From Clostridia bacterium (lineage in GTDB: Bacteria > Bacillota > Clostridia > Oscillospirales > CAG-272): 64,000 bases of DNA. The stretch covers positions 62,001 through 126,000 of the forward strand of contig JAFVVP010000004.1 of assembly GCA_017502135.1 (NCBI GenBank). The letters are read 5' to 3'. Shown piece after piece: positions 22,903-52,496 of the stretch. The position numbers and the translations under genes were made by a program. Numbering within the stretch: position 1 is the stretch's first letter; every line of letters begins with the position of its first letter. The notes beneath the pieces were generated by a model that saw only the letters and a list, made by a program, of their open reading frames with translations, did no database searches and was not told where the DNA came from.

Positions 22903-22931
22903 TTGACTTTACCGCGCGATTTATGTATAAT
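22903..22931 (+). promoter_or_regulatory. Sigma-A promoter of the rnf operon
   Basis: TTGACT (22903-22908), 17-base spacer, TATAAT (22926-22931). A leader of about 70 bases follows before rnfC. Confidence 0.87.
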
Positions 22932-22935
22932 CATG

Positions 22936-22969
22936 TACAGTGGGTGTACTGTGCGGTGGACACCTTTTT
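22936..22969 (+). promoter_or_regulatory. Possible attenuator-like leader of the rnf operon
   Basis: In the leader, ACAGT/ACTGT around 22937-22951 can form a small hairpin. This is mutually exclusive with GGTGT (22943-22947) pairing with ACACC (22960-22964), which is followed by TTTTT. Stems are short (5 bp), so this is only a hint of transcriptional control. Confidence 0.25.
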
Positions 22970-23006
22970 GCCGCATAGACACAATAGAAAAGAAAGGTAC
23001 AAAGAT

Positions 23007-25243: not shown

Positions 25244-26415
25244 AACAAAACATAAGAAACCTTTCCGTGTTCGTCTGTATCTGCACGGTGATCACGCTCC
25301 TTCTGGCATTTACCAACTCGCTGACCGCTCCCATTATAGAGCAAAACCAAAATGCCGCCGCAAATAAGGCGCTTCTTGAGGTAATGCCCGAGGGGCAAGG
25401 CTTTGAGACGGTTCTCTTGGAAGAATACACGCTCCCCACTACCGTATCCGAGGTTTACAGAGAAACCTCCGGCCTCGGCTACGTGGTGAAGCTTATCACC
25501 TCCGGTTACGGCACCGATATGGTCATCATGTGCGGCGTTGACACTAAGGGGATCGTTACCGGTGCTGTATGCCTTTCCTCGAACGAAACGCTCGCGAAAG
25601 AAAAGACGTACGGTGAAAACTTTACGGATAAAGATGCGGCCGGTGTGGATGCAGTCGATACGATCGGCGGCGCTACGAAAACGACTGCCGCCTACAAAAA
25701 CGCAGTCAAGGATGCGCTTAGTACCGCGATCATTCTCGGCGGCGGCTCTGTCGACATCCGTACGGAGGAGGAAATCCTCGCTGACAATCTGGCGGCGGCT
25801 CTGCCGGCAGGTGAGGCAAAATTTGAAAAGCTTTTCCGCGTGGAGCTTATCGAAAACGTCGATGCCATTTACGCCGCTGAAAACGGGGCAGGGTACGTCT
25901 TCGTTATCGGTGAGACGTTCGTCGGTGTTCTGGCTGACGGTACGGTTGTTACCGAAGGCATCGACAACGCAGAGATGATCACCGCGGCGGTCACCCTCAT
26001 TCAGTCGAGTACCGTGGAGGATATCGCTCTCTCTGCTTACACCGATCTTACCAAAACGGTTGTCTCTGCGAAGAAGACGGCCACCGGCAACTTCATCGTG
26101 GAAACGAAGGGCGCCGGCTACGGCATCAAAGGCGGTAATGAATATCATCCCGCATCGGGTGAATATATCATCGTACGCGTTTCGATGACGCCCGATTACA
26201 GGATCATCGACTGCCTCACCGTTTTTGAAGCGGAAACGGACGGTCTTGGCGATGCGTGCGCTGACGAAAGTTTCTACGGTCAGTTCGTCGGTAAGACGGA
26301 AGCAAATTATACCGAGATTGATGCAATCAGCGGAGCCACGATGACGACTGACGGCTACAAACAGGCGATTGAACGTGCCTTTGCGGCTGTGAAAATCCTG
26401 AAAGGAGGAGAATGA
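25240..26415 (+). CDS. rnfG: Ion-translocating oxidoreductase subunit RnfG with duplicated FMN-binding domain
   Basis: Extracytosolic flavoprotein subunit of Rnf. It has an N-terminal TM anchor (about 8-30) followed by two FMN_bind-type domains instead of the usual one, making it 391 residues rather than ~200. Flavinylation motifs are DTIGGAT (Thr146) in the first and DAISGAT (Thr367) in the second. The second is the canonical DxxSGAT form; the first has Gly for Ser. Two covalent FMNs on one RnfG would lengthen the extracytosolic electron path. It overlaps rnfD and rnfE by 4 bases each, so expression is tightly coupled. Confidence 0.94.
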   Translation: MKQNIRNLSVFVCICTVITLLLAFTNSLTAPIIEQNQNAAANKALLEVMPEGQGFETVLLEEYTLPTTVSEVYRETSGLGYVVKLITSGYGTDMVIMCGVDTKGIVTGAVCLSSNETLAKEKTYGENFTDKDAAGVDAVDTIGGATKTTAAYKNAVKDALSTAIILGGGSVDIRTEEEILADNLAAALPAGEAKFEKLFRVELIENVDAIYAAENGAGYVFVIGETFVGVLADGTVVTEGIDNAEMITAAVTLIQSSTVEDIALSAYTDLTKTVVSAKKTATGNFIVETKGAGYGIKGGNEYHPASGEYIIVRVSMTPDYRIIDCLTVFEAETDGLGDACADESFYGQFVGKTEANYTEIDAISGATMTTDGYKQAIERAFAAVKILKGGE

Positions 26416-27107
26416 GCGTGAAGGAAAAAAACTCGCTTTCCGTTTTAACGAACGGAATTCTTAAAGAAAACCCTGTGCTGGTGCTCATTCTCGGCACCTG
26501 TCCCACCCTGGCTACGACGACCACGGTTACCGGCGCTTTGGGCATGGGGATCGCGGCGCTCCTCGTTCTCCTTTGCTCCAACGTGTTCATTTCGCTTCTC
26601 CGTAAAATTATCCCCGAAACGATGCGTATCCCGTGCTACATCGTCATCATTGCGGGATTTGTAACGATCGTAAAAATGTTTGTACAGGCGTATTTTCCCG
26701 GCCTTTATGAAACGCTCGGTGTTTACCTCGATCTTATAACGGTAAACTGCATCATTCTCGGCCGTGCCGAAATGTTTGCCGGCAAAAATACCGTTTTGAA
26801 ATCTGCACTTGACGGCATCGGTATGGGCCTCGGCTTCACCCTGGCTCTCGGTGCGATGGCTACCGTCCGTGAGGTTATCGGTGCCGGTACGTTTGCGGGT
26901 ATGGCGATTCCCTTTATGGAGGAATACAAGATCGCGTTTATGGCGAAAGCGCCCGGCGGACTCCTTGTCTACGGACTTTTGATTGCGCTTGTGTACGCGA
27001 TCACCAAGGGCAAATTCCCCAAAAAGACGACGTTCTCCTGTGAGGGATGCTCGCACAGAGACACCTGCCAGATTGAAACCTGCACGAAGAAGGGGGCTGA
27101 ATGTTAA
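26412..27107 (+). CDS. rnfE: Ion-translocating oxidoreductase subunit RnfE with cysteine-rich C-terminal tail
   Basis: Membrane subunit (231 residues, six TM) homologous to NqrD. The intramembrane cysteines expected to ligate the [2Fe-2S] shared with RnfA are present (C30 in 'GTCPTLA', C113 in 'VNCIILG'). Unusually, the C-terminus continues into a hydrophilic tail with C210, C213, C219, C224 and C231 ('CEGCSHRDTCQIETC'), which looks like an extra metal or iron-sulfur site. The stop codon overlaps the rnfA start (TAATG). Confidence 0.95.
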   Translation: MSVKEKNSLSVLTNGILKENPVLVLILGTCPTLATTTTVTGALGMGIAALLVLLCSNVFISLLRKIIPETMRIPCYIVIIAGFVTIVKMFVQAYFPGLYETLGVYLDLITVNCIILGRAEMFAGKNTVLKSALDGIGMGLGFTLALGAMATVREVIGAGTFAGMAIPFMEEYKIAFMAKAPGGLLVYGLLIALVYAITKGKFPKKTTFSCEGCSHRDTCQIETCTKKGAEC

Positions 27108-27706
27108 TGGAGCAATTGAAACTTCTTATCGTTATTCTGCTTTCCGCTGTTTTTGTAGATAACTACGTGCTCTGCCGTTTTCTCGGCATCTGTCCGTTTC
27201 TGGGCGTCTCGAAGAAGCTTGATCAGGCAACAGGTATGGGACTTGCCGTTACGTTTGTCATGCTCCTCGCCGCGGCTGTAACCTGGCCGATTCAGCATTT
27301 CGTTCTCGATGCGCTCGATATGGGATATCTTCAGAATATCGTTTTTATTCTGATTATCGCAACGCTCGTGCAGATTCTCGAGATGCTTCTTAAAAAACTC
27401 TCGCCCGCCCTCTATAAAGGACTCGGCGTGTATCTCCCCCTTATTACTACGAACTGCGCGGTTCTCGGCGTTACGATCAACAATATCATTGACGGCTATT
27501 CCTTTATCGAATCCATGGTAAGCACGCTTGGATGCGGACTTGGGTTCCTTCTTGCCATGGTACTGTTCTCCGGCCTTCGTTCCCGCATCAACGAAGCGAA
27601 CATCCCCGCGCCTTTCCGCGGACTCGCAGTTACTCTTATTGCCGCTTCCTTTATATCCCTTGCGTTTATGGGATTTGCCGGCATCGTTGAAAATCTTTTC
27701 GCATAA
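27107..27706 (+). CDS. rnfA: Ion-translocating oxidoreductase subunit RnfA
   Basis: Membrane subunit homologous to NqrE (199 residues, six TM). With RnfE it holds the intramembrane [2Fe-2S] via C29 in 'LGICPFLGVS' and C117 in 'TTNCAVLGV'. Two ATGs are possible. 27107 is preferred because it overlaps the rnfE stop as TAATG and lies 10 bases after AGGGGG, whereas 27101 is too close to that site. It is followed by rnfB after 16 bases. Confidence 0.95.
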   Translation: MEQLKLLIVILLSAVFVDNYVLCRFLGICPFLGVSKKLDQATGMGLAVTFVMLLAAAVTWPIQHFVLDALDMGYLQNIVFILIIATLVQILEMLLKKLSPALYKGLGVYLPLITTNCAVLGVTINNIIDGYSFIESMVSTLGCGLGFLLAMVLFSGLRSRINEANIPAPFRGLAVTLIAASFISLAFMGFAGIVENLFA

Positions 27707-27722
27707 TTACGGGAGGTTGTAG

Positions 27723-28565
27723 ATGGAAATTTTAATTGCATTTCTTTTTATGCTTGCCGTAGCGCTTCTGGCAGGAATTTTGCTCATCGTTTTCTCCCGC
27801 CTTTTTGCGGTGGAGAAAAATCCTCTGGAAAAAAGGATCAGAGAATGTCTGCCGGGCATTAACTGCGGTGCCTGCGGTTACAAGGGCTGTGACGACTACG
27901 CCGCTGCATTGGCGGAAGATGGCGCAAAACCAAGTCTGTGTGTCCCGGGAACGCAAAAGGTCGCCGATGAGATCAGCGACTTGCTTGGCATCGAGAAAGT
28001 GCAGGTAGAGGATGTAGTTGCATTCGTTGCCTGTAACGGACATCCCGGCGTTACTTCCCGTATGGCGGAGTATGAGGGCGTTATGACGTGCCGCGCCGCG
28101 TCCATGCTTTTCGGCGGTCCCAATTCCTGTCGCTTCGGCTGTCTTGGCCTCGGTGATTGCGCGGCTGCCTGCCCGTCGGATGCGATCTGCATGGTTGGCG
28201 GTATCGCACACGTGGATACCTCCCGCTGTCTGGGATGCGGCTTGTGTGCCCGGACTTGCCCCAAAAAGATCATCAAGATGCTCCCGCAACAGGCGGCAGC
28301 CGCCGTGGTATGCAGCAATACCGAGAGCGGCGCACTTGCACGCAAAGCTTGTAAGAATTCTTGCATCGGCTGTAAAAAGTGCGAAAAAGCGTGTCCGTCA
28401 GGCGCAATCAAGATTAAGGATAATCTTGCTGTAATTGATTATAATATCTGTACGTACTGCGGCTTTTGCATAAGCCAGTGTCCGACCGGCTGCCTTAAGA
28501 AAGTGTTCTTCCCCGATCTGCCGGAGGACTGCGATGTTAAAGAACTCACGGAGGATTATGAATAA
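27723..28565 (+). CDS. rnfB: Ion-translocating oxidoreductase subunit RnfB
   Basis: Ferredoxin-accepting cytosolic subunit, 280 residues. It has an N-terminal TM anchor (about 5-27), a [4Fe-4S] domain with 'INCGACGYKGCDDYA', then several ferredoxin-type motifs. These include 'CPSDAICMVGG', 'CLGCGLCARTCP', 'CIGCKKCEKACP' and 'CTYCGFCISQCP'. It would receive electrons from ferredoxin reduced by fermentation enzymes or by the Hdr/Flx system downstream in the window. Its stop overlaps the next gene by 8 bases, which ties the following EetA-like protein to the Rnf operon. Confidence 0.96.
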   Translation: MEILIAFLFMLAVALLAGILLIVFSRLFAVEKNPLEKRIRECLPGINCGACGYKGCDDYAAALAEDGAKPSLCVPGTQKVADEISDLLGIEKVQVEDVVAFVACNGHPGVTSRMAEYEGVMTCRAASMLFGGPNSCRFGCLGLGDCAAACPSDAICMVGGIAHVDTSRCLGCGLCARTCPKKIIKMLPQQAAAAVVCSNTESGALARKACKNSCIGCKKCEKACPSGAIKIKDNLAVIDYNICTYCGFCISQCPTGCLKKVFFPDLPEDCDVKELTEDYE

Positions 28566-33453: not shown

Positions 33454-33460
33454 GAACATA

Positions 33461-40784: not shown

Positions 40785-40823
40785 ACAAAAGGCTCAGAAT
40801 CTTATGATTCTGAGCCTTTTTGC
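40785..40823. terminator. Bidirectional terminator between the membrane protein gene and the transporter gene
   Basis: AAAAGGCTCAGAATC (40787-40801), loop TTAT, GATTCTGAGCCTTTTT (40806-40821). A- and T-runs on both sides serve the two convergent units, including the long minus-strand fumarate operon. Confidence 0.93.
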
Positions 40824-40916: not shown

Positions 40917-42179
40917 TTAAAACAGAATAACAAGAAATTGAGAAACCAAAACAACCGCAACGAGCGCGATCGGATAGGTTGCTGCATAGGCAGAGGCAAC
41001 GTCCTCCGTTTTTGCCACGTTGATCAGGGTACCAAGCGCAGGAGTACTCGTCATACCGCCGGTGAGAGAACCGAGATTGTTGAGAAGACTCATCTTAAGG
41101 ACATATTTCGCGAAGAAATAGCCGGCGATAAGCGGGATGCCGGTCATGATAACACCGTAAACGAAATACATAGGATCGAAGTTTGCGATGAATTCCGCGC
41201 CGCCGGGGATACCCGCACCGACAAGGAAGAGTACCAATCCAAGTTCACGGAAGAGTTTCAAAGTTCCGATGCCGGGCATAAGATTGATGCGGCCGATTCT
41301 GCCGAAGTGTCCGAGAACAAGGCTCGTGAGAAGGCATCCGCCGGTTGTGGTGAGCGAAAAGCACGTACCCGAAAGGCCGGCCGAGGAGAGCGGTATCTTA
41401 ATCTGACCGACAACTGTACCAATGATGGCTGCAAGCGCGAATGCAGCAATGCCCATGTGGTCAATTTCAAACAGCCTCGTAATAACGGATTCTTTCGAGT
41501 CTTCTTTTTTTACGAGGAGAAGTTCTCTTTCTTTGTCCATATTCGCTTTTACCATTTTAGGAATCAGCTGAACGAAGAGAACGACACCCACAACGCCGAA
41601 TATGTAAGCAATTCCGTGGCCTACGGAAACAAGGCCTACGTACTCGGGGGCAACGGTTGCCTTTGCTGCCGCAAAAGCAGGCGTGGATGTAAGAGAGCCG
41701 GAGAGAAGTCCTACGATCATGGCTACAAAGCCATCCTGTTCGGTGATCGTCGCACCGTAGCCGAGTACTTCGCCGAGTCCTATGCAGCCGGCAGCGGCCG
41801 CGCCGCCCGCTAAGATAACGATAAGACCGAGAAGAACGTAGGATTTGAAGTTTTTCTTGAAATTCCCGAAAAACTTCGGACCGGCTATAAAGCCAACGGA
41901 TGTTACAAAGAGGATAAGACCGAGAGCTTCTATTAGCGAAAGACCGCTTGTAAAATCGTACGGCTTTGCGGATGCACTGAAATGCAGCGCACCTTCCGTA
42001 TTTACTTGGAAAAACAGCGCGCCGAAAATAAGCGCTACGATAAATACACCGGCATCACCGAGGGAAATGCCCTTGATCGTAATTCTGCCGAGTGCGTAGC
42101 CGAGAAGAAGTACGGTAAATACCACAAACAACAGGGTATAGATATTACTGATGGAAATAACACCGCCAAATAAACTCAT
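40917..42179 (-). CDS. AspT/YidE-type (AAE family) transporter, putative dicarboxylate/succinate exporter
   Basis: Polytopic membrane protein, 420 residues, about eleven TM segments. It is built of two 'YidE/YbjL duplication' halves, each with the motif 'GxxTSTPA' ('GSLTSTPAFAAAK' at about 180, 'GGMTSTPALGTLI' near 380). The RCK_C (TrkA_C) domains between halves of AspT and YidE are missing; only a short charged loop is there. AspT exchanges aspartate for alanine. Here the gene is the last of the fumarate reductase operon, 14 bases after frdA, so succinate export or dicarboxylate exchange (for example fumarate, malate or aspartate in, succinate out) is the likely job. The substrate is inference. 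Confidence 0.82.
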   Translation of the reverse strand: MSLFGGVISISNIYTLLFVVFTVLLLGYALGRITIKGISLGDAGVFIVALIFGALFFQVNTEGALHFSASAKPYDFTSGLSLIEALGLILFVTSVGFIAGPKFFGNFKKNFKSYVLLGLIVILAGGAAAAGCIGLGEVLGYGATITEQDGFVAMIVGLLSGSLTSTPAFAAAKATVAPEYVGLVSVGHGIAYIFGVVGVVLFVQLIPKMVKANMDKERELLLVKKEDSKESVITRLFEIDHMGIAAFALAAIIGTVVGQIKIPLSSAGLSGTCFSLTTTGGCLLTSLVLGHFGRIGRINLMPGIGTLKLFRELGLVLFLVGAGIPGGAEFIANFDPMYFVYGVIMTGIPLIAGYFFAKYVLKMSLLNNLGSLTGGMTSTPALGTLINVAKTEDVASAYAATYPIALVAVVLVSQFLVILF

Positions 42180-42193
42180 TCTGTTATCCCTCC

Positions 42194-43798
42194 TTAAATA
42201 TTTTCCTGTTTTGTGTAGTTTGGCAGGAGTTTCGGGGAAACGGTTTCCGTTTTGATTCCCGCATCGGCGAGCATCGCTTCAAATTTTGCAATATGATCGA
42301 GCGTGAGCTTGCCGACGGTGGTCTCTTTAGCGACAGCGGCTGCGTGCTGACCTGCATTTCTGCCGAAAACAATAATGTCAAGAAGGCTATTGCCCATCAG
42401 TCTGTTTTTGCCGTGAATGCCGCCAACGGCTTCGCCTGCGACAAAGAGGTTCTTCACGTTTGTGGTTTCGCCGTTAACTTTAATGTCGAGACCGCCGTTC
42501 TGGTAGTGCAGGGTAGGATAAATGAGAATCGGTTCCTTGCGGATATCAATGCCGTATTTACCGAACATACGCATCATCGCGGGAATTCTCTTTTCGATCG
42601 TGCCTTCACCGCCGATTTTTTCAATCATAGGTGTGTCGAGCCATACAGCCTGACCGTTTCCTGTATCGACGCCGTTACCGCGCTCAGAGCATTCGCGGAT
42701 GACGGAGGCAGCGGTAACATCGCGGGTTTCCAAGGGGTGCATAAATACTTCGCCATTTTTATTGACGAGTTTAGCACCGAGGGAACGGACCTTTTCGGTT
42801 ACGAGCGCGCCGAAAATCTGTGTGGGATAGGCAGCGCCGGTGGGGTGATACTGAAGTGTTTCCGCATAGAGAAGTTTTGCGCCCGCGCGGTAGCCGAGAA
42901 CAAGGCCGTCAGCGGTTGCACCGTAGTGGTTAGAGGTTGGGAAGCCCTGGTAGTGCATACGACCTGCGCCACCGGTTGCGATAATGACGGTTTTTGCCTT
43001 CGCAACGAGGAGTTCCTTTGTCTCCATATTCATAAGAACCGCCCCGGCTGCCGCACCGTTTTCATCGAGAATAAGCTCGATTGCCGCCGTGAAGTCAACA
43101 ACGGTGATGCCGCGGTTGAGAACTTCATCGCGGAGGGTTCTCATAATTTCGGCACCGGAGTAGTCCTTTGCCGCATGCATACGCTTGCGGGACGTACCGC
43201 CGCCGTGTGTTGTGATCATGGTGCCGTCCGGTTCCTTGTCAAACTCTACGCCCAGTTCAGACAGCCACCGGATCGCCTCGGGGGCGTCGCACACCAGTTT
43301 TGCAAGCAGATCACGCTTTGCGGAAAAGTGGCCGCCGCCGAATGCGTCGACAAAGTGGATCGCGGGTGAGTCGTTGGGCTTATCAGCCGCCTGAATACCG
43401 CCCTCTGCCATCATTGTGTTGGCATCACCCATACGAAGTTTGGTAACAATCATAACGTCAGCGCCTGCTTCATGTGCTTCGATAGCCGCGGCGGTACCCG
43501 CACCGCCGCCGCCGATGATGAGCACGTCGGTTTCGTAATCGGGTGCGGAGAGGTTTACGCTGTCTGCAGTGATGCGGCTGTGTGCCTGGAGCGTCGCCGC
43601 AAGTTCTTTCGGAACCTTTTCTCCTTTGTTAGGACCTACTGTGAGCGTTTCGAACTCATCCGTTTTATAGTCGGGATGGAAAGTGGACAGCACTTGCTCC
43701 TTTTGCTCGGCGGTCATGCGGGCCGGCTCGAACGCAATATTCTTTTCTCTTGCGGCTTCTACAAGCGCGAGAGATTCCTTAAACTGTTCAGAATACAT
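42194..43798 (-). CDS. frdA: Fumarate reductase flavoprotein subunit (soluble, Tfr/Sdh-Frd family)
   Basis: Flavoprotein of 534 residues, start after AAGGAGGACAG. An N-terminal extension (1-88) precedes the FAD dinucleotide fold 'VLIIGGGGAGTAAAIEA' (96-101). Fumarate-site residues of the Frd/Sdh family are conserved: HPTG (318-321), Arg359 in 'LETRDVTAASVIRE' (catalytic acid position), His431 in 'LHYQNGGL' and Arg466 in 'IHGKNRLMGNSLL'. At the place where quinone-linked FrdA/SdhA attach FAD through a histidine (RSHT), this protein reads 'DANTMMAEGG', so the FAD should be non-covalent, as in thiol:fumarate reductase. It is 13 bases from frdB and in one operon with fumarase, Hdr and Flx genes. 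No membrane-anchor subunit is present. Confidence 0.9.
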   Translation of the reverse strand: MYSEQFKESLALVEAAREKNIAFEPARMTAEQKEQVLSTFHPDYKTDEFETLTVGPNKGEKVPKELAATLQAHSRITADSVNLSAPDYETDVLIIGGGGAGTAAAIEAHEAGADVMIVTKLRMGDANTMMAEGGIQAADKPNDSPAIHFVDAFGGGHFSAKRDLLAKLVCDAPEAIRWLSELGVEFDKEPDGTMITTHGGGTSRKRMHAAKDYSGAEIMRTLRDEVLNRGITVVDFTAAIELILDENGAAAGAVLMNMETKELLVAKAKTVIIATGGAGRMHYQGFPTSNHYGATADGLVLGYRAGAKLLYAETLQYHPTGAAYPTQIFGALVTEKVRSLGAKLVNKNGEVFMHPLETRDVTAASVIRECSERGNGVDTGNGQAVWLDTPMIEKIGGEGTIEKRIPAMMRMFGKYGIDIRKEPILIYPTLHYQNGGLDIKVNGETTNVKNLFVAGEAVGGIHGKNRLMGNSLLDIIVFGRNAGQHAAAVAKETTVGKLTLDHIAKFEAMLADAGIKTETVSPKLLPNYTKQENI

Positions 43799-43811
43799 GG
43801 TGCTGTCCTCC

Positions 43812-44492
43812 TTATTTCTCAATCTCACGTGTGTTGTAAAGCTCTTTCATTTCGTCGATCTGCTTTTCCATGAGAGCCTCAATGAGTTCGGTAAACGTGC
43901 CGTCGTTGATCTCTCGTACGCGGTCTTCCAGGTGATCGCAGCCGGGCGCGAGATACTTGCCGTTGATACGGCGAGCAAGCATTGCCACCTGCGGGTGGGA
44001 AATGCCCGCGGGGCAACGGGAGGAGCACACGCCGCACATTACGCAGTCAAACGATTCCTCCGCGCATGCAGCGAAATCACCGCGCTGTGCGTATGCGATG
44101 TACTGCATAACGTTCAACTCCTGGGTGCACGCTTTCGTGCAGGCATTACATCCTACACAAGCGTAAATTTCGGGGTAAAGCTGCATCATGACAGCCTCGG
44201 TGGGCGTGATCTTCTCCATGTCGTAAACCTGCTTGATAAGGGGGAAGAAGGGAAGTGTTGCAATGTACATGCCGTCTTCCACCTTGGTCTGGCAGGCGAG
44301 GCAAGCCTTCAATTCATGCTGACCCTTGATGCGGTACAGCGTTGCACAGGCACCGCAGAAACCGTTTCTGCATCCGCATCCGCGAACGAGTTGATAGCCT
44401 GCGTATTCCATCGCCGTCATAATCGTCAGCTCGGCGGGAACCTCATATTTTTTGCCGAAAAGGAATATATTTACAGTATTTTCCATATTCAT
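43812..44492 (-). CDS. frdB: Fumarate reductase iron-sulfur subunit (FrdB/TfrB N-part-like)
   Basis: Iron-sulfur protein of 226 residues. The N-terminal plant-type [2Fe-2S] domain has C41, C46, C49 and C64 ('CRNGFCGAC', 'LKACLAC'). Two [4Fe-4S] motifs follow: C112/115/118/122 ('CVGCNACTKAC') and C150/153/156/160 ('CVMCGVCSSRCP'). Canonical FrdB/SdhB has a [3Fe-4S] next to the quinone. Here both C-terminal motifs are complete CxxCxxCxxxC, so a quinone-type [3Fe-4S] is not indicated. The CCG domain that completes TfrB of methanogens is absent, but the separate HdrB encoded in this operon has it. It probably bridges HdrB/Flx to the flavin of FrdA. Confidence 0.88.
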   Translation of the reverse strand: MNMENTVNIFLFGKKYEVPAELTIMTAMEYAGYQLVRGCGCRNGFCGACATLYRIKGQHELKACLACQTKVEDGMYIATLPFFPLIKQVYDMEKITPTEAVMMQLYPEIYACVGCNACTKACTQELNVMQYIAYAQRGDFAACAEESFDCVMCGVCSSRCPAGISHPQVAMLARRINGKYLAPGCDHLEDRVREINDGTFTELIEALMEKQIDEMKELYNTREIEK

Positions 44493-44502
44493 TCACCGTC
44501 CA

Positions 44503-45336
44503 TCAATATTCATCCGGAAGCTCATCCAGTTCATCACAGCGGAAGACCGGACCGTCCTTGCATACGTACTTTGCGCCAACGTTGCAACGTCCGCATTTGC
44601 CGACGCCGCACTTCATGCGCAGTTCCAGGGTCGTGTAGACCTGTGTTTTGTCAAATCCGAGTTCCGATAGCCCGTCAAGTGTGAATTTGATCATGATCGG
44701 CGGTCCGCAAAGAACTGCCATTTTATTTGTATCAAATCCGAGTTCCTTGACATAATTCGGCACGAATCCGACATGCCCGTCCCAACCCTCTTGTTCGCGG
44801 TCAATGGTTAGGTGAACGTGCACGTTTTCATCGTTCTGCCATTCTTCGATAATTTCACGGTAATCCAGAAGATCGTCCTTGGAGCGGGATCCGTATACGA
44901 TATCGATACGGCCGTATCTGTCGCGGTAGTGACGGCAATAGTTGATAACGGAGCGCAGAGGTGCAAGGCCGACACCGCCGGCGATGAACAGCATATCGTG
45001 ACCGGCAAATACGTCGTCAACGGGGAACGGCTTTCCGTACGGACCGCGGACGGTGATCATCTGACCTTCCTCGGCGGCATGAAGCCATTCGGTAACGCAG
45101 CCGCATTTTTTGATAGAGAATTCCATATACTCCGTATTCGTGGGAGAGGAGGTAATGGAAAACATTGCCTCGCCGATTCCGGGAACGGACAGCATAGCAC
45201 ACTGTCCGGGGCGGTGATCAAACGGCTTTTTGCCGTCCGGCGTAACAACGCGGAAGGTTTTGATGTCCGGGGTATCAATGCGCACGTCGGTGATTACACC
45301 CAGGATGGGAATTAAAGTTTCATTCATGTCAGTCAT
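44503..45336 (-). CDS. flxA: FlxA-like FAD/NAD(P)H-binding oxidoreductase subunit
   Basis: Ferredoxin-NADP reductase-fold protein of 277 residues. FAD domain (about 10-105, with the isoalloxazine motif in 'GEAMFSITSS'), NAD(P) domain ('MLFIAGGVGLAPLRSVI', 'VLCGPPIMI') and a C-terminal [2Fe-2S] motif C-x4-C-x2-C ('MKCGVGKCGRCNVG') with a further cysteine. It matches the NADH-oxidising subunit of the FlxABCD-HdrABC complex of Desulfovibrio vulgaris and the gamma subunit of sulfhydrogenases. Predicted role is entry of NADH electrons into the complex. It overlaps flxB by 8 bases and is 10 bases from frdB, placing NADH oxidation and fumarate reduction in one transcript. Confidence 0.88.
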   Translation of the reverse strand: MTDMNETLIPILGVITDVRIDTPDIKTFRVVTPDGKKPFDHRPGQCAMLSVPGIGEAMFSITSSPTNTEYMEFSIKKCGCVTEWLHAAEEGQMITVRGPYGKPFPVDDVFAGHDMLFIAGGVGLAPLRSVINYCRHYRDRYGRIDIVYGSRSKDDLLDYREIIEEWQNDENVHVHLTIDREQEGWDGHVGFVPNYVKELGFDTNKMAVLCGPPIMIKFTLDGLSELGFDKTQVYTTLELRMKCGVGKCGRCNVGAKYVCKDGPVFRCDELDELPDEY

Positions 45337-46354
45337 CGGTATCCACCTCCAGCGCTTTCATAACCTTGACGATATTCATAGAGATCGGACACTTGGCAAG
45401 GCATCTGCCGCAGCCGACACAAGAGAATATTCCGTCGTTGTTTTCGGGAAAGTACACAAGTTTGTGCATGAATCGCTGACGGAAGCGCTCCTTCTGCGAG
45501 TTGCGGTTGTTGCCGTGTGCCATTTTCGTGAATTCCGAGTACATGCAGGAGTCCCAGCAGCGATAACGTACTACGCCGTTGTTCGTCTTGAAATCGCGGA
45601 TATCATAGCATTGGCAAGTGGGGCAAACGAAGGTGCAGGTGCCGCAGCCGAGACAACTCTCAGACAGCTTTTCCCACTGGGGGGAATGGAAGAACTGTTC
45701 GGTTTTACTGCCGCCGAATGCATTGGCTTCCAGATCGGCAAGCGGCAGGCGCTTCATAACCTTGCGGTTTTTTTCCTTTTGCGCACTTACTGCGGAATCA
45801 TCACATGCTTCGGTGAGATCGGCAATCAGTTTCGTGAAGGCTTGGCCGCGCTCGGTATTGGCATGCAGATATAGCGCGTCGTCCGTGAGCCATGCGCTGA
45901 CGTCGCCCATGGGCTCTGCGGCGTCAATGCCGAAAGTTCCGCAGAAGCAATTTTCCGTCGGGCGATTGCAAGCAAGCGAAATAATGACTCCGTGCTCACG
46001 GCGCGAAGCGTAATAGCTGTCGCGGGGCTCGGTGAGAAAGACGCGGTCAAGAATCTCCAGACTTTTTACATCACACGCACGTACGCCAAAGACGGCAAAG
46101 TCCTCGGTTTCAGTTCTCGTGTCAATGACTTCAATTTTTTTACCTTCGGTCTTGAATGCCATCAAGTCTTCACTCTGCGGAAAGAAGAGATCCTTGGGAC
46201 CTTTTACGGTATTCGAGGCGTTGCTCCATACCGTGCCCGGCTGCCATTTTTTGAAAACGGCACCGTTTTTATCCTCCGTCGGGAGATAGAGCGGCATAGA
46301 GGCAGAAACGATCTCAAAAAGTTTATCGATGTTCGAGAGAGTACATTTAAGCAC
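45329..46354 (-). CDS. flxB: FlxB-like [4Fe-4S] dicluster protein
   Basis: Cytosolic iron-sulfur protein of 341 residues, similar in build to AsrA and the beta subunit of NAD(P)-reducing sulfhydrogenases. The N-terminal region has a conserved 'FGVRACDVKSLEILDRVF' and 'CFCGTFG' segment. Two C-terminal ferredoxin motifs are 'CLGCGTCTFVCPTCQC' and 'CVGCGRCLAKCPIS'. Expected to pass electrons between FlxA and the MvhD-like FlxD. Start overlaps the flxC stop by 8 bases. Confidence 0.85.
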   Translation of the reverse strand: MLKCTLSNIDKLFEIVSASMPLYLPTEDKNGAVFKKWQPGTVWSNASNTVKGPKDLFFPQSEDLMAFKTEGKKIEVIDTRTETEDFAVFGVRACDVKSLEILDRVFLTEPRDSYYASRREHGVIISLACNRPTENCFCGTFGIDAAEPMGDVSAWLTDDALYLHANTERGQAFTKLIADLTEACDDSAVSAQKEKNRKVMKRLPLADLEANAFGGSKTEQFFHSPQWEKLSESCLGCGTCTFVCPTCQCYDIRDFKTNNGVVRYRCWDSCMYSEFTKMAHGNNRNSQKERFRQRFMHKLVYFPENNDGIFSCVGCGRCLAKCPISMNIVKVMKALEVDTDD

Positions 46355-47345
46355 GATCGAAGCCTCCTTTCACAACGTCAGAGGGCTCGGGATCATCCAG
46401 ACTGAAGTTAACAAGCGGTGCACGCTGATTGTCGTATTCGCCTGCCTGGTACTCTCCGTACGTTTCATTCATATCTTTGATGAACTTACGGTTCAACAGG
46501 TGAAGCGGGATGTTCTGCGGGCATACGCGTGAGCATTCGCCGCAGTCCGTGCATCTGCCCGCTACGTGGTACGCGCGGATGATGTGGAACAGCTTTTCTT
46601 CAAATTCTCCGCCGGGTGCTTTGCTCTGTACGCCGGAGTTCGGATTGTCAAATACGCACTTTTCGCAGGTGCAAGCAGGACATGCATCGCGGCAAGCATT
46701 ACAGCGGATGCAGCGGGAGAGTTCGTTCTGCCAGAAAGCAAAACGTTCGTCTGCACTCAGCGCTTCAATCTTTTCAACTTCGTCAAAACGGTTGGAGGTG
46801 AGAACCTCGCCCTCGTCTCCGATAAGCTCGTCGTATGCAACGTGTTTCTTTGATTTGCAGTTGAGACAGCGTTCCGTGAGAACCTCGGCGCAGCTTACCG
46901 ATATCGGTTCGTCATCATAGAGCGTATGAACGAGAAGGGAATTCTCGCACGCTTCGATTGCCGTGATACCTTCACCGACGATCTTGCGGATTTTTTGAAT
47001 ATCTGCCATGCCACTGCAAGGTATGCCGATCGCGTACACCTTTTCGCGGTCGAAGCGATGCTCAGAAAGGAGCTGGTTGAAACTGTATGTATCACAGGGC
47101 TTCAAAAATACAAGAATCTTACCGTCGATCTCGCGGGTTTTCTTGAGAAGATATTTTGAAAGGTTCGCTCCGGAGAAATCGTTGTAGATAAAGCCTTCGG
47201 TCAGTTCCTCGGCGGCTGTGAAGACTGCGGGTGTCAGATCGTAGTCAAATTCGCCGCGTTTCCAGCCGAGAACAGCGGCAACGGTGCCTTCGCCGAGCAG
47301 GGATGCTGCGCGCTCGCACAATGATTTGGTTGTTACTGTTTGCAT
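46347..47345 (-). CDS. flxC: FlxC-like [4Fe-4S] dicluster protein
   Basis: Iron-sulfur protein of 332 residues of the F420-hydrogenase-beta/formate dehydrogenase-beta-like group. Its N-terminal domain has 'FLKPCDTYSFNQLLSE' and 'GIPCSGMADIQKI', and the ferredoxin domain has 'CIRCNACRDACPACTC' and 'CTDCGECSRVCPQNIP'. The chosen ATG at 47345 removes an arginine-rich tail that would overlap flxD more deeply. It still overlaps flxD by 13 bases. It is the second iron-sulfur relay of the Flx module. Confidence 0.85.
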   Translation of the reverse strand: MQTVTTKSLCERAASLLGEGTVAAVLGWKRGEFDYDLTPAVFTAAEELTEGFIYNDFSGANLSKYLLKKTREIDGKILVFLKPCDTYSFNQLLSEHRFDREKVYAIGIPCSGMADIQKIRKIVGEGITAIEACENSLLVHTLYDDEPISVSCAEVLTERCLNCKSKKHVAYDELIGDEGEVLTSNRFDEVEKIEALSADERFAFWQNELSRCIRCNACRDACPACTCEKCVFDNPNSGVQSKAPGGEFEEKLFHIIRAYHVAGRCTDCGECSRVCPQNIPLHLLNRKFIKDMNETYGEYQAGEYDNQRAPLVNFSLDDPEPSDVVKGGFDRA

Positions 47346-47770
47346 CGCAGATCCTCCAATCTTTTGTTCGGGCCAAGCGCCGTAACTTTTTCTACAAACT
47401 CGTTCATCGTAGCGGCAAATTTCGCACCTTCGGCGGCGGATACCCACTCAACACGCGTGCGGTCACGCTCAATGCCAAGAAAATCAAGCATCGAGAAGAG
47501 CATCGACATACGGCGGCGGGTGTAGTAGTTGCCGGTGGAATAGTGGCAGTCGCCCGGATGACATCCGCAAAGGATTACGCCGTCCGCGCCGCGCTGAAAT
47601 GCGCGAAGGATAAACATAGGATTGACACGACAGGAGCAGGGTACGCGAATGATTTTTACGTCAGCCGGGTATGCGAGGCGATTGCTTCCTGCAAGGTCTG
47701 CACCGGCGTATGAGCACCAGTTGCAGCAGAATGCAACGATAACGGGCTTGAATTCTTTTACATCTTGCAT
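47333..47770 (-). CDS. flxD: FlxD / MvhD-like iron-sulfur subunit
   Basis: Small iron-sulfur protein, 145 residues, of the methyl-viologen-reducing hydrogenase delta (MvhD) family. It has the characteristic cysteines 'FCCNWCSYAGADLAG', 'IRVPCSCRVNP' and 'CGCHPGDCHY' for a [2Fe-2S] cluster. MvhD is the direct docking partner of HdrA in methanogens, so this subunit ties the Flx module to HdrA. It overlaps hdrA by 13 bases, the usual sign of stoichiometric co-expression. Confidence 0.9.
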   Translation of the reverse strand: MQDVKEFKPVIVAFCCNWCSYAGADLAGSNRLAYPADVKIIRVPCSCRVNPMFILRAFQRGADGVILCGCHPGDCHYSTGNYYTRRRMSMLFSMLDFLGIERDRTRVEWVSAAEGAKFAATMNEFVEKVTALGPNKRLEDLRCKQ

Positions 47771-49755
47771 ATTGCATCCACCTCCGCCATGATTTGATTG
47801 TTTTTAAATCCGTTCAGATCCATTGCACCGGACGGGCAGGCAACCGTACAAGCACCGCATCCCTGACAAACTGCAGGATTGACCGAGGCAACACGTCGGA
47901 GCTTTGTCGTGCGGTCAGGCATTCTGAATTCTTTTTCTTCATAAGTGATAGCGCCGTACGGACAGACGCGTTCACAGCTTGAACAGCCGTTGCACATCAG
48001 CTCATTAGACTGTGCGATGCACGGGTTACCGGTCAGATGATCCTTAACAAGAAGACCGATGACTTTAGAAGCCGCGGCACTTGCCTGGGATACCGTTTCG
48101 GGAATATCCTTCGGGCCCTGGCAGCAGCCGGAAAGGAATACGCCGGCAGTGGGGGATTCCACGGGACGTAGTTTCGGGTGCGCTTCGGTGAAGAAATCGT
48201 TTGTGTCCATAGAAGCTGTCAGCATGGTAGCCAGCGGTCGGGCGGACTTGTCCGGCTCGATTGCCGCCGCGAGAACGACGAGATCGGCGTCGATGTGAAG
48301 CTGCTTTCCGTTTATGAGATCGGATGCCTGTACCAGCAGCTTTTTACCCTCCGGAACGACCTTCCCCACCATACCTTTGATGTAATGCACGCCGTACTCT
48401 TCCACCGCGCGGCGGTAGAATTCGTCAAACGCCTTACCGGGGGTACGTACGTCAATATAGAACACGTAAACGTCGGTATCGGGGTATTTATCACGGATAA
48501 GCATTGCGTGCTTTGCCGTGTACATACAGCAGATTTTTGAGCAGTATTCTTTGCCTTTTTCGGCGCAGTTTTCGCATCTGGAGCCGACACACTGTACGAA
48601 AACGATCTTATGCGGATGCTCACCGTCGGAAGGGCGGAGCAGTTTTCCGGAAGTAGGGCCTGCCGCATTGGTGAGACGTTCGAACTCAAGAGAGGTAATG
48701 ACGTCCTTTGACTGGCTGTACGCGAACTCGTCGAACTTCTCCATGGAGATGGGGTTGTAGCCGGTTGCAACGACGATCGCACCGTATTTTTCCTTTACAA
48801 ACTCGTCTTTTGCATTGTAATCGATGGCGCCGGCGGTGCACACCTTGGCACATACACCGCACTTGCCGGTTTTCAGCATAGTGCAGTAATCGGCATCAAT
48901 GGTTGCGACCTTCGGTACGGCCTGCGCAAACGGAATATAAATAGCGCGGCGGTTGTCCATACCGAGATTGAATTCGTTGGGGACTTTCTTCTGCGGGCAC
49001 TTTTCCGTACAGAGTCCGCATCCGGTACAAATATCTTCCTTTACGTAACGTGCCTTGCGCTTGATGGTAACGTCGAAGTTACCAACGTAACCGCCGACCT
49101 CCGTTACTTCGCTGTAAGAATAGATGCGGATATTTTCGTTTTGTGCCGCATCGACCATTTTCGGAGTGAGAATACACGCGGCGCAGTCGAGCGTAGGGAA
49201 AGTCTTATCCAGCTGCGCCATCTTGCCGCCGATAGTGGGCTTTTTTTCTACGATATCAACGGGGAAACCTGCATCGGCAATATCGAGCGCGGTCTGAATA
49301 CCCGCAATACCGCCGCCGATCACGAGCGCGCGCTTGGTGACGGTTGATTGACCGGGAGTAAGCGGGGCGTTGAGGTTTACCTTAGCCACGGCTGCTTTGC
49401 CGAGGATAATAGCTTTTTCCGTGCCGGAAAGCATATCCTTATGTATCCAGGAGCATTGCTCGCGGATGTTGGCGATCTCCACCATGTACGGATTGAGTCC
49501 GGCGGCCGCCGCTGTTTTACGGAAGGTTGCTTCGTGCATACGGGGTGAGCAGGAGCAGACAACGATGCCGGTCAAAGAATGTTCGTGGATCGCATTTTTG
49601 ATAATATCCTGACCCGCCTGGGAGCACATATACTGATAATCGGTGGAAAAGACCACACCGGATTCCGTTTTGAGTGCTTCTGCAACGGCGTGAACATCTA
49701 CGGTGCCCGCAATATTCGAGCCGCACCAGCATACAAATACGCCAATTCTTTGCAT
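47758..49755 (-). CDS. hdrA: Heterodisulfide reductase-like subunit HdrA (electron-bifurcating FAD subunit)
   Basis: Flavin/iron-sulfur protein of 665 residues. The N-terminal domain has 'VFVCWCGSNIAG', followed by the thioredoxin-reductase-like FAD domain with 'VIGGGIAGIQTALDIADAG'. The HdrA-specific cluster region is 'DKTFPTLDCAACILTPKM'. Inserted ferredoxin motifs are 'CTGCGLCTEKCPQKK' and 'GKCGVCAKVC', and two C-terminal motifs are 'CNGCSSCERVCP' and 'CQGCGACTVACP'. In Hdr-Mvh this FAD is the bifurcation site, sending one electron towards HdrB and one to ferredoxin. The selenocysteine or cysteine disulfide chemistry itself is not here but in HdrB. Located between flxD and hdrC. Confidence 0.93.
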   Translation of the reverse strand: MQRIGVFVCWCGSNIAGTVDVHAVAEALKTESGVVFSTDYQYMCSQAGQDIIKNAIHEHSLTGIVVCSCSPRMHEATFRKTAAAAGLNPYMVEIANIREQCSWIHKDMLSGTEKAIILGKAAVAKVNLNAPLTPGQSTVTKRALVIGGGIAGIQTALDIADAGFPVDIVEKKPTIGGKMAQLDKTFPTLDCAACILTPKMVDAAQNENIRIYSYSEVTEVGGYVGNFDVTIKRKARYVKEDICTGCGLCTEKCPQKKVPNEFNLGMDNRRAIYIPFAQAVPKVATIDADYCTMLKTGKCGVCAKVCTAGAIDYNAKDEFVKEKYGAIVVATGYNPISMEKFDEFAYSQSKDVITSLEFERLTNAAGPTSGKLLRPSDGEHPHKIVFVQCVGSRCENCAEKGKEYCSKICCMYTAKHAMLIRDKYPDTDVYVFYIDVRTPGKAFDEFYRRAVEEYGVHYIKGMVGKVVPEGKKLLVQASDLINGKQLHIDADLVVLAAAIEPDKSARPLATMLTASMDTNDFFTEAHPKLRPVESPTAGVFLSGCCQGPKDIPETVSQASAAASKVIGLLVKDHLTGNPCIAQSNELMCNGCSSCERVCPYGAITYEEKEFRMPDRTTKLRRVASVNPAVCQGCGACTVACPSGAMDLNGFKNNQIMAEVDAICKM

Positions 49756-49770
49756 GTATCTTCTCCTCTC

Positions 49771-50157
49771 TTATTTCGTGTATTTCCGGAATGCGCTGAC
49801 GAGCAACTGTCCTGGCGTGTTATCATCAAGCATCTGGGGAACGTCATCGGCAGTCATGCGGTTAGCCCCCTGCTTACGGATCGCGGTAAGACGAACTGCT
49901 TCAATGAGTTTGGCAGGCTCTACACCGCGCGGGCACCGTTCCATGCAGGCAAAGCATGACAGACAGCGGTAGAGTGAGTCAGAACGAAGAAGCGGTTCGA
50001 TCTCGCCGTTATCGATCATGGATGCAAACTGATGAGGATGAAATTCCATTTCATCGTATGCAGGGCAAGATGCAGAGCATTTGCCGCATTTCATGCATTT
50101 TTTTACGTTAACGCCGCTGATACGGAGGATTTCCTTTTTCAGTTCGGTGTTATTCAT
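49771..50157 (-). CDS. hdrC: Heterodisulfide reductase-like subunit HdrC
   Basis: Small [4Fe-4S] dicluster protein (128 residues) with 'CMKCGKCSASCPAYDEMEFHP' (in parts: CMKCGKCSASCP) and 'CLSCFACMERCPRGVEP'. In Hdr complexes it relays electrons from HdrA to HdrB. It overlaps hdrB by 8 bases and lies 15 bases from hdrA. The order hdrB-hdrC-hdrA is complete and intact. Confidence 0.92.
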   Translation of the reverse strand: MNNTELKKEILRISGVNVKKCMKCGKCSASCPAYDEMEFHPHQFASMIDNGEIEPLLRSDSLYRCLSCFACMERCPRGVEPAKLIEAVRLTAIRKQGANRMTADDVPQMLDDNTPGQLLVSAFRKYTK

Positions 50158-50941
50158 TGACTTCCTCCTTAATGCCCAATGCCTCCGCTAAAATCTCCGT
50201 GAAGTAAACGATAGGGAGTTTTGAGGAGTACTTTTCGAGATTGTACTTGCAAAGCGGGCAAGCGGTAACGAGCATTTCGGCCCCGGCAGCCGCGGCATTA
50301 TCTATAACCTTACCACTGTTCTTTTCCGCGAGCGCGGGCGATTCGGCGGAAACATAACCGCCGCAGCATTCGTTACGTCTTGCATAGATGACGGGCTCGC
50401 CGCCGAGCGCAACGATAAGATCTTCGATAATACGCGGATTTTCCGGATCGTCCATGCCGAGAACTTTGCCGGGACGAAGAAGCAGGCAGCCGTAGTAAGC
50501 GCCGATTTTCTTGCCTGCAAGCGGCTTTTTGACCGCCATTGCCACATTGGAGAAGCCAACTACGTCGCGAAGGAGCTCAAGATAATGATAAACGGTCGTT
50601 TCGCCGTTGTACGGCGTTTCTTCTGCCATGTACCGGTTGACACGGTCTCTGAAGACGATGTCGTTTTTCATAGCGTGATTGGTTTGCTTTACAACGTTGT
50701 GGCATGCAGAGCAAACGGTAACGAGCGGCTGATCGGCATCTTTTGCAGAACGAAGCAGACGAACTGAAGAGAGCTTGGTGGCAATTTCATCGTTAGCGGT
50801 GGTGAACACACCGCCGCAGCACTGCCACGCTTTTGGCTCTTCCAGGGTTATGCCGAGCACTTCTGCAGATTTTCTCCCATATTCGTCAAGATCCCGTGCC
50901 TTGTTTTTTAAGGTACAGCCGGGAAAATACGTTACTTTCAT
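50150..50941 (-). CDS. hdrB: Heterodisulfide reductase-like subunit HdrB (two CCG domains)
   Basis: Protein of 263 residues with two intact CCG domains that bind the non-cubane [4Fe-4S] clusters of HdrB. The first domain has C9, C41-C42, C77 and C80 (spacing C-x31-CC-x34-CxxC). The second has 'YYGCLLLRPG', 'NECCGGYVSA' and 'CPLCKYN'. In methanogens this is where the CoM-CoB disulfide is reduced. Bacteria lack those thiols, and HdrB instead meets DsrC or other partners. Here the gene lies in an operon with FrdAB, so delivery of electrons to fumarate reductase is proposed. The start at 50941 follows GGGGGTC. Confidence 0.92.
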   Translation of the reverse strand: MKVTYFPGCTLKNKARDLDEYGRKSAEVLGITLEEPKAWQCCGGVFTTANDEIATKLSSVRLLRSAKDADQPLVTVCSACHNVVKQTNHAMKNDIVFRDRVNRYMAEETPYNGETTVYHYLELLRDVVGFSNVAMAVKKPLAGKKIGAYYGCLLLRPGKVLGMDDPENPRIIEDLIVALGGEPVIYARRNECCGGYVSAESPALAEKNSGKVIDNAAAAGAEMLVTACPLCKYNLEKYSSKLPIVYFTEILAEALGIKEEVNE

Positions 50942-50957
50942 AATGACCCCCATTCAA

Positions 50958-52334
50958 TCAGCACATTTCTTCGGGATGGAACACCTCGTCAAATTTTTCG
51001 GCTGTGAGGAAGCCGAGCTCTACACATGCTTCTTTCAGCGAAATATTGTCTTTATAAGCCTTTTTAACAGTTTTTGCTGCGTTTTCATAACCGATGTAGG
51101 GGTTAAGAGCGGTAACGAGCATAAGAGAATTGTGCAGATTGTGATGCATTTTCTCCTTGTTTGCTTTAATTCCTACAGCACAGTTGTTGTTGAAGGAAAC
51201 GATGGCCTCGGCGAGAAGTCTTGCCGACTGGAGGAAATTGTATGCGGCTACGGGCATAAATACGTTCAATTCAAAGTTGCCCTGGGATGCCGCCATACCA
51301 ACGGCGACGTCGTTGCCCATTACCTGAACGGCTACCATGGTAACTGCTTCACACTGGGTGGGGTTGACCTTACCGGGCATGATCGAGGAGCCGGGCTCAT
51401 TCTCGGGAATAAAGATTTCGCCCAGACCGTCGCGGGGGCCGGATGCGAGCCAGCGGACGTCGTTTGCGATCTTCATCATATCGCAGGCAAGGGCCTTGAT
51501 CGCACCGTGTGCGAATACGAGCTCGTCCTTAGAGGTGAGTGCGTGGAATTTATTGGAAGCCGTTACAAACGGTTTTCCGGTCAGTTCTGCGCACTTCTGG
51601 GCAACGAGTACGTCAAAGCCTTTCGGTGCATTGAGACCGGTACCGACAGCCGTGCCGCCGAGCGCAAGCTCATAGAGAGGCTTTACGGAAAGTTTCAAGA
51701 GTTCAACATCGCGCTCAAGAGAGGAGCGCCAGCCGGAGATTTCCTGGCTGAACCGGATCGGCGTCGCATCCTGAAGATGCGTACGTCCGGATTTGACGAT
51801 ACCTTCATTTTCTGCTTCCAGACGCTTGAAGGTCTCGATAAGGAGTTCGGTTGCCGGGATGAGTTTGTCCTCAATCGCGATGGCGGCGGAAATGTGCATA
51901 GCCGTCGGGAACGTGTCGTTCGACGACTGGCTCATGTTGATGTCATCATTGGGATGGGTCAATTCCTTGCCTGCAATCTGATTGGCGCGGTTGCGAATGA
52001 CTTCGTTCGTATTCATGTTCGACTGCGTGCCGGATCCGGTCTGCCATACGACGAGAGGGAAGTGATCCATCAGTTTTCCTGCGATGACTTCGTCGCAAGC
52101 CGCGGTGATAGCATCCAATTTTTCTTTTGTCATCTTTTCGGGCTTCAACTCGTGATTGGCGAGTGCTGCCGCTTTCTTGAGAATGCCGAAAGCGTGTACG
52201 ATCTCAGCCGGCATCGTTTCGATGCCTACACCGATTTCAAAGTTTTCGCGGCTTCTCTGTGTCTGTGCTGCCCAAAGTTTGTCAGCAGGTACTTTCATCT
52301 CACCCATCGAGTCATGTTCAATACGGTATTCCAT
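50958..52334 (-). CDS. fumC: Fumarate hydratase class II
   Basis: Oxygen-stable fumarase converting malate to fumarate; 458 residues, usual length. The superfamily signature is '[15 protein letters not shown]'. Also present are '[18 protein letters not shown]', '[12 protein letters not shown]' and '[16 protein letters not shown]', which together form the active site. The start at 52334 follows AAAGGACC. It is the first gene of the operon and supplies the substrate for the reductase encoded downstream. Confidence 0.96.
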
Positions 52335-52467: not shown

Positions 52468-52496
52468 ATTATATAACAAATTGTGTTAAATTTCAA
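52468..52496 (-). promoter_or_regulatory. Sigma-A promoter of the fumarase-Hdr-Flx-fumarate reductase operon
   Basis: On the minus strand TTGAAA (52496-52491), 17-base spacer, TATAAT (52473-52468). It is the only good promoter upstream of fumC, consistent with one transcript of about 11.6 kb. Confidence 0.82.

Follow-up and report, generated by a model that had tools for sequence, protein, structure and literature searches.

The operon described here lies in a window of 64,000 nucleotides, the whole stretch of DNA that was analysed (positions 62,001 to 126,000 of contig JAFVVP010000004.1 in GenBank assembly GCA_017502135.1, from a Clostridia bacterium). According to the list of open reading frames (ORFs) of the window, the minus strand holds eleven genes as an intact operon in the order fumC-hdrBCA-flxDCBA-frdBA-AspT-type transporter, which are predicted to encode a fumarase, subunits related to heterodisulfide reductase (Hdr) and to Flx proteins, a fumarate reductase (Frd), and a transporter. 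Gene starts were trimmed to ATG or GTG, a Shine-Dalgarno-like sequence being present ahead of most genes, and with these starts the ten gene junctions ranged from a 13-base overlap to a 16-base gap (-13 to +16). A promoter-like site at 52468..52496 (-), matching the consensus at 11 of 12 positions, was the sole minus-strand site of such quality in the 13.5-kb region (mean in 60 shuffles, 0.05). An intrinsic terminator at 40787..40820 (-) is a hairpin of 15 pairs closed by a loop of 4, with a T-run. Perfect stems of at least 13 pairs were not seen in 20 shuffles, and the three such stems counted in the real sequence are apparently nested counts of this single hairpin. At looser default thresholds, promoter- and terminator-like sites in the operon region were no commoner than in shuffles. 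The original prediction, eleven tightly packed genes on one strand with one promoter and one terminator, is borne out by the junctions, the strong promoter-like site and the strong terminator. The host genome has 1.14 Mb in 10 contigs and is 64.6% complete. The closest named relatives of FrdB (best 80 of 526 candidates) were in metagenome-assembled genomes titled Clostridia, Oscillospiraceae, and Ruminococcus among others, many from herbivore gut, and the host appears to be a gut-type Clostridia bacterium.

The reductase genes follow one another at the downstream end of the operon, all coordinates below being on the minus strand. The product of frdB (43812..44492), 226 aa in length, displayed in motif and profile scans one [2Fe-2S] motif and two four-cysteine [4Fe-4S] motifs (CxxCxxCxxxC, two copies). 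Invariance was counted in 76 of the 136 fetched loci, those with all nine core genes (hdrBCA-flxDCBA-frdBA) well covered, and the 12 motif cysteines of FrdB were invariant in 76/76. No CCG (thiol-oxidising, HdrB-like) domain was found in FrdB in a Pfam scan. Because FrdB has two four-cysteine motifs (eight cysteines) and lacks a CCG domain, and none of the operon genes encodes a membrane anchor, a protein partner is the probable source of its electrons. The model of FrdB was poor (mean predicted local distance difference test score, pLDDT, 52) and was set aside.

The fumarate reductase flavoprotein is encoded by frdA (42194..43798), as indicated by catalytic residues, profile matches and Foldseek matches, and is the single FrdA-family gene in the host genome. 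Residues H328, T344, E345, R369, H441, and R476 (numbered from the GTG of the listed ORF) were invariant in 17 rows and aligned with the active site of E. coli FrdA; we take this His, Thr-Glu, Arg, His, and Arg to have the catalytic roles. Asn137, also invariant in the 17 rows, occupies the place of the FAD (flavin adenine dinucleotide)-binding His of E. coli, which we take to bind FAD covalently. The FrdA model (mean pLDDT 75, predicted template modelling score 0.82) had E. coli FrdA (1kf6) as the best Foldseek match; its TM-score to aspartate oxidase 1knp was 0.64, like that to 1kf6, and the two cannot be told apart by fold alone. L-Aspartate oxidase NadB was rejected on the profile score (TIGR00551, 267 bits vs a cut-off of 453). 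The fold and catalytic residues are thus shared with E. coli FrdABCD, from which the operon differs in the lack of an anchor among its genes, of the FAD-binding His, and of the C-terminal domain of FrdA, in an N-terminal extension of about 85 residues, and in the two four-cysteine motifs of FrdB; the E. coli enzyme has a [3Fe-4S] cluster. A quinol:fumarate reductase was rejected on the missing anchor and covalent-FAD His. The best NCBIfam matches of FrdA (338 bits) and FrdB (41 bits) were methanogen TfrAB, both far below the cut-off. Methanogen TfrB carries a fused HdrB-like (CCG) domain, whereas FrdB has none and aligned only to TfrB residues 19-99; with TfrA at 338 bits vs a cut-off of 718, a methanogen-type TfrAB was also rejected. 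The FrdA extension is unlikely to be an Hdr-specific docking piece, because FrdA ORFs beside no Hdr genes are similarly long.

The Hdr part of the operon consists of three genes. HdrB (50150..50941) has two CCG domains (PF02754 in two stretches; PDB HdrB 8rvv_B, E 1e-32), and its 10 cysteines for two non-cubane [4Fe-4S] clusters were invariant in 76/76 loci. HdrC (49771..50157) has two [4Fe-4S] motifs (TIGR03290, 62 bits, cut-off 160), with all 8 motif cysteines, in two four-cysteine motifs, invariant in the same 76 loci. HdrA (47758..49755) is the candidate FAD-containing bifurcation subunit. It is full length, matching methanogen HdrA (5odc_A, E 3e-207) over its whole length, and the FAD domain, the inserted ferredoxin-type motif, and both C-terminal ones are present. 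Its recognisable cluster-motif cysteines were invariant and Lys415 was kept in 76/76 loci; this residue aligned to Lys409 of methanogen HdrA, which we take to lie close to the flavin.

The input module is encoded by flxDCBA. FlxD (47333..47770) is an MvhD-like subunit (PF02662, 187 bits; match to the C-terminal part of NF040770) and FlxC (46347..47345) an iron-sulfur (Fe-S) subunit (PDB 7bkb_E, E 4e-22; 8rvu_E, E 2e-21). In the PDB search, FlxC was related to FdhB (formate dehydrogenase beta subunit) of formate dehydrogenase-Hdr complexes; being closest to the FdhB of HdrABC complexes, it fits an input module docked on HdrA. FlxB (45329..46354, GTG start) is an AsrA/sulfhydrogenase-beta-like Fe-S subunit (NF040829, 180 bits, cut-off 690; PF17179), and FlxA (44503..45336) is a subunit for FAD and reduced nicotinamide adenine dinucleotide (phosphate), NAD(P)H, with a [2Fe-2S] motif (PF00175, PF10418; sulfhydrogenase-1 gamma 9nez_C, E 2e-55). 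At the ends of the operon, fumC (50958..52334) encodes a class II fumarase, malate to fumarate (Pfam Lyase_1, 364 bits; FumaraseC_C, 84 bits), and the last gene (40917..42179) encodes an AspT/YidE/YbjL-family transporter (TIGR01625, 111 bits, cut-off 72), putatively a dicarboxylate exporter or exchanger as judged from gene context. The family assignments of the original prediction hold, except that its AspT label has to be narrowed: the transporter scores above the cut-off of the AspT/YidE/YbjL duplication domain but not above that of the Asp:Ala antiporter.

FrdB had 4986 relatives in a protein search with an E threshold of 1e-3. The named loci are the best 80 of 526 candidates and hence close relatives. 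Enough sequence around frdB (7 kb or more on its upstream side and 1.7 kb or more on the other) was available in 57 of these loci, and in all 57 hdrBCA-flxDCBA-frdBA was present in that order; the genome search for hdrA-flxD-frdA adjacency that had been suggested with the original prediction thus found the nine-gene core intact wherever there was room. Where the named loci had room, fumC immediately preceded the block in 56 of 60 and an AspT-type gene immediately followed it in 52 of 62. Among 20 more diverse regions, the block had the same order in 18 (in one of which the contig ends within frdA), was permuted to frdBA-hdrBCA-flxDCBA in one (L033), and lay on too short a contig in one; fumC was directly upstream in 6 and an AspT-type gene adjoining in 8. 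Since these two genes adjoin the block less often in the diverse regions, they look like accessories and the nine genes look like the core.

Co-occurrence in the class was surveyed in 391 genomes, the host included, with FrdB at E up to 1e-20 and HdrA at E up to 1e-100. Both proteins were found in 52 genomes, FrdB only in 2, HdrA only in 5, and neither in 332. Contig ends within the same operon explain 3 of the 7 exceptions, namely FrdB-only genomes G071 and G361 and HdrA-only genome G032. The remaining HdrA-only genomes have HdrA with an MvhD-like part in a different setting (G022) or longer HdrA-like proteins (G037, G065, and G155). A subset was used for tests on HdrA, Rnf, [FeFe] hydrogenase, and MenD, consisting of 39 of the 53 other FrdB-positive genomes, 40 of the 337 FrdB-negative genomes (the first 40 from a random draw of 53), and the host; the positives were all at least 90% complete, with G359, G360, G361, G366, and G378 left out at that level. 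HdrA was found in 39/39 FrdB-positive and 0/40 FrdB-negative genomes, and HdrA and FrdB were on one contig in 35 of the 39. These counts indicate that in this class HdrA accompanies FrdBA and almost nothing else.

Elsewhere in the phylum, FrdB was found in 38 of 397 other genomes, a sample to which the class contributed some genomes but no positives. Regions were fetched for 36 of the 38, and FrdB in these was 45-59% identical to FrdB of the window. The neighbours of FrdBA were Hdr-Flx genes (n = 5, with n being the number of regions), an hdrCB-hdrA-hdrA'-mvhD-flxC-like set (n = 11, its upstream part being cut in L171 and L174), hdrCB alone (n = 4), or neither (n = 16). Hdr-Flx genes were in permuted order in L143, L144, L145, and L147 (flxA of the last lying beyond the stretch taken) and were also present in L156. 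In L170, the only member of the hdrCB-hdrA-hdrA'-mvhD-flxC-like set that was scanned, subunits of a 2-oxoacid:ferredoxin oxidoreductase and sucC follow. Scanned loci without Hdr had beside FrdBA a class I fumarase and malic enzyme (L149), malic enzyme (L163 and L177), or pyruvate carboxylase (L157); below family cut-offs, NrfH-like cytochromes (L158 and L160), a formate-dehydrogenase-type cytochrome b (L159), and RnfC-like proteins (L146) were also seen beside FrdBA. With such varied electron partners, related FrdBA looks like a plug-in module. In a tree of FrdB and FrdA built by a quick method from 68 rows, the main Clostridia clade does not include the loci with permuted Hdr-Flx genes; these five, L033 and four of the phylum loci, group together as a clade of their own. 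The Hdr-Flx context needs 4 changes on this tree, 3 of them being forced by well supported branches, and repeated assembly and repeated loss would both fit. To our search of the open-licence literature, no report of the near-perfect co-occurrence of HdrA and FrdB in Clostridia or of this range of FrdBA partners was found.

Two further features of the phylum loci were observed. HdrA-like proteins containing several HdrA pieces (1058 to 1489 residues long) are encoded at L170:10355-13651 and by comparable genes in L153 and L154; these genes lie beside a normal hdrA and upstream of frdBA, and a similar hit pattern was seen in eight further loci. In L168, an apparent frdB-frdA fusion was rejected as a long antisense frame, frdB and frdA being separate on the opposite strand; this open frame of 1175 codons (L168:694-4221, -), antisense to both genes, is probably a by-product of base composition.

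Several known systems resemble the operon. An HdrABC-FlxABCD NADH dehydrogenase/heterodisulfide reductase was reportedly described by Ramos et al. in 2015, and in Desulfovibrio the acceptor of HdrABC-FlxABCD is a thiol/disulfide. All seven of its subunit types are present here too; the operon differs in having the acceptor module FrdBA in the same operon, co-occurring with HdrA. Judging by its title, a 2014 paper by Meyer et al. connects the reduction of fumarate to Hdr-Flox and Rnf in Desulfovibrio alaskensis. In tubeworm symbionts, a direct transfer of electrons by Hdr-Flx to a thiol:fumarate reductase is proposed or discussed in the available text of two papers (PMC6315080, PMC11636981). 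According to the same texts, fumarate reductase genes in the hdr-flx-kor-tfr clusters of these symbionts are mixed with flxABCD-hdrABC, as here, and the differences are that the hosts are Gammaproteobacteria, that a 2-oxoglutarate:ferredoxin oxidoreductase lies inside the clusters, and that the reductase genes are called tfrAB (PMC6315080, PMC11636981); the symbiont tfrAB had an expression pattern unlike that of the rest of the cluster, in the text available from PMC11636981. The arrangement in L170 is much like these clusters.

The closest likeness in gene content is to the 'succinate operon' of Pseudoclostridium thermosuccinogenes (CDQ83_RS03365 to RS03315), for which ferredoxin-coupled fumarate reduction was assumed in 2020 in the available text of PMC7282089. 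It shares the order of fumarate hydratase, Hdr/Flx (seven locus tags), fumarate reductase (two), and a putative succinate transporter; the likeness is one of locus-tag content, as the order inside the Hdr/Flx block is not given in the available text, and the biochemistry there is likewise only proposed (PMC7282089). In the same text, expression of the operon was up about 4-fold at low CO2, and an effect of H2 on succinate was found by the authors to be consistent with ferredoxin coupling (PMC7282089). The statement in the original prediction that no characterised enzyme of this kind is known agrees with the open-licence literature, in which none was found; its novelty is reduced in that the same gene content and coupling had already been proposed in the available text of PMC7282089. 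The proposal is not new, and the operon is plausibly a further case of the proposed enzyme type, bifurcation being deduced here from homology. A 2019 preprint is reportedly cited for ferredoxin-coupled fumarate reduction in the P. thermosuccinogenes paper. The species is in cultivation, and gene silencing by CRISPRi has been reported for it (PMC9044749).

We propose that the operon encodes a soluble NADH-fed fumarate reductase in which HdrA bifurcates electrons between FrdBA/fumarate and ferredoxin, and put the probability of this at roughly 0.7, a figure that rests on HdrA-FrdB co-occurrence and on anatomy. The operon would encode one soluble complex. FlxABCD would take hydride electrons from NADH, presumably rather than NADPH, and pass them to the FAD of HdrA. 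HdrA would probably bifurcate them, one electron going via HdrC and HdrB, the latter a presumed part of the path, to FrdB and FrdA, where fumarate would be reduced to succinate, and the second going to ferredoxin, as suggested by HdrA homology. Ferredoxin may then be reoxidised by Rnf or hydrogenase, and succinate may be exported by the transporter. The net reaction would be 2 NADH + fumarate + oxidised ferredoxin -> 2 NAD+ + succinate + reduced ferredoxin, with two electrons on ferredoxin. Of the bifurcating NADH:fumarate reductase originally predicted, NADH-fed fumarate reduction is thus supported by gene content, co-occurrence, and cofactor anatomy; for ferredoxin reduction the evidence is the homology of HdrA.

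The potential of ferredoxin was taken as -500 to -420 mV. The available text of PMC5861303 gives E0' values of -320 mV for NADH, +33 mV for fumarate, and -70 mV for menaquinone. By arithmetic with these values, the free energy of the coupled net reaction is about -33 to -49 kJ/mol. As to the fate of the ferredoxin, a separate rnfCDGEAB operon lies in the window at 22857..28565 (+), with RnfC, D, E, and A over the TIGR cut-offs, RnfB over TIGR01944, and RnfG below the cut-off, and the host genome has one [FeFe] hydrogenase; with a complete Rnf and this hydrogenase, the cell could use reduced ferredoxin to export ions or to release H2. RnfG of the window has 391 aa and matches the RnfG profile weakly, below the cut-off, close to either end, and a second RnfC is present on contig C3 of the host genome. 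Pyruvate:ferredoxin oxidoreductase (TIGR02176) gave weak partial hits only in the incomplete host genome. MenD was over the cut-off in none of the 80 genomes of the subset and host (weak in 11 of the 80), and none was found in the host genome.

Several points weigh against this proposal. The co-occurrence counts are uncorrected for ancestry, the Fisher p of 3e-56 having been calculated with shared ancestry ignored. An argument for co-evolution of frdAB with hdrA from distance-matrix correlations was withdrawn, as there was no contrast to fumC on the same 59 rows (fumC-hdrA 0.77, hdrA-frdA 0.79, hdrA-frdB 0.74, hdrB-frdB 0.64). Rnf as an obligatory ferredoxin sink was rejected for want of a link, being over the cut-off in 21/39 FrdB-positive vs 29/40 FrdB-negative genomes, and [FeFe] hydrogenase was not clearly enriched (33/39 vs 32/40). 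The futalosine-route family PF02621 was just over the cut-off (27-34 bits) in 5 of 40 genomes (FrdB-positive plus host), the host not being among the five, and absences in the host genome are weak since it is incomplete. HdrB retains the cysteines of both non-cubane clusters, which leaves room for a thiol substrate. In the phylum, four of the 16 genomes without adjoining Hdr (G757, G459, G677, and G456, with loci L157, L164, L172, and L161), each 99% complete, gave no match to HdrA at E up to 1e-60; FrdBA can therefore take electrons from something else, and HdrA is not needed everywhere. The remaining 12 of these genomes, and the four with hdrCB, have HdrA elsewhere. In P. thermosuccinogenes, induction of the operon was not significant for every subunit, and Na2S had an effect on fermentation opposite to that of H2, as far as the available text goes (PMC7282089). 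Finally, no assay, purification, or complex structure of such an enzyme was found in the open-licence literature.

Three other readings were weighed. HdrA might be a mere conduit in an NADH:fumarate reductase without bifurcation, the potential drop being lost as heat in exchange for fast NADH reoxidation. Uncoupled electron transfer from NADH to fumarate is already strongly downhill by the potentials in the available text of PMC5861303, and the lack of Rnf enrichment among FrdB-positive genomes is in keeping with this. We nevertheless regard it as unlikely, since in 76/76 loci HdrA retains its cluster-motif cysteines, those of the two C-terminal ferredoxin-type motifs included, as well as the Lys aligned to Lys409, and a simple conduit would not need a whole HdrA.

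Another reading places a diffusible thiol in the middle: HdrABC-FlxABCD would reduce a disulfide or a DsrC-like protein, and HdrB-FrdBA would act as a split thiol:fumarate reductase. The ten conserved cysteines of HdrB, the TfrA and TfrB matches (below cut-offs), and the four loci with hdrCB-frdBA and no adjoining HdrA, though HdrA is elsewhere in those genomes, could be accommodated in this way, and a DsrC-like protein is named as one option for the tubeworm symbiont in the available text of PMC11636981. It is improbable in view of the absence from FrdB of the HdrB-like domain that TfrB carries, and of the finding that both PF02754 hits in the host genome, which is incomplete, fall in a single HdrB; the same subunit would have to both reduce and oxidise the disulfide. 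Bifurcating complexes are reversible in principle, and related FrdBA lies beside sucC and 2-oxoacid:ferredoxin oxidoreductase in L170. Operation in reverse, with succinate oxidation and confurcation giving NADH from succinate and reduced ferredoxin, is nonetheless very improbable, as the fumarase and putative dicarboxylate transporter fit succinate production and the related operon belongs to a succinate producer according to the available text of PMC7282089.

Adjoining the operon, plus-strand genes at 33383-38764 (+) encode a homocitrate/isopropylmalate-synthase-family protein, an aconitase, and an NADP-isocitrate dehydrogenase, with an ORF at 34940-35602 in between. The first may, we presume, be a Re-type citrate synthase, and the three genes may supply the second arm of a split citric acid cycle.

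In animal guts, fermentation yields succinate as one of its main products, from which propionate is formed. On balance, it seems likely that FrdBA is a plug-in that has been coupled more than once to HdrA bifurcation and that in this class it is the dedicated and practically sole acceptor of HdrA-Flx, whereby about one in seven sampled genomes of the class (54 of 391) would bifurcate to succinate without quinones and feed Rnf, hydrogenases, or other sinks. No assay showing a route of ferredoxin-based energy conservation at the fumarate step was found in the open-licence literature. The class-wide co-occurrence makes the P. thermosuccinogenes proposal general, and the other settings of FrdBA provide natural variants for testing which subunit hands electrons to FrdB. 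If the operon bifurcates, reduced ferredoxin could give menaquinone-free Clostridia a way of saving energy at the fumarate step.

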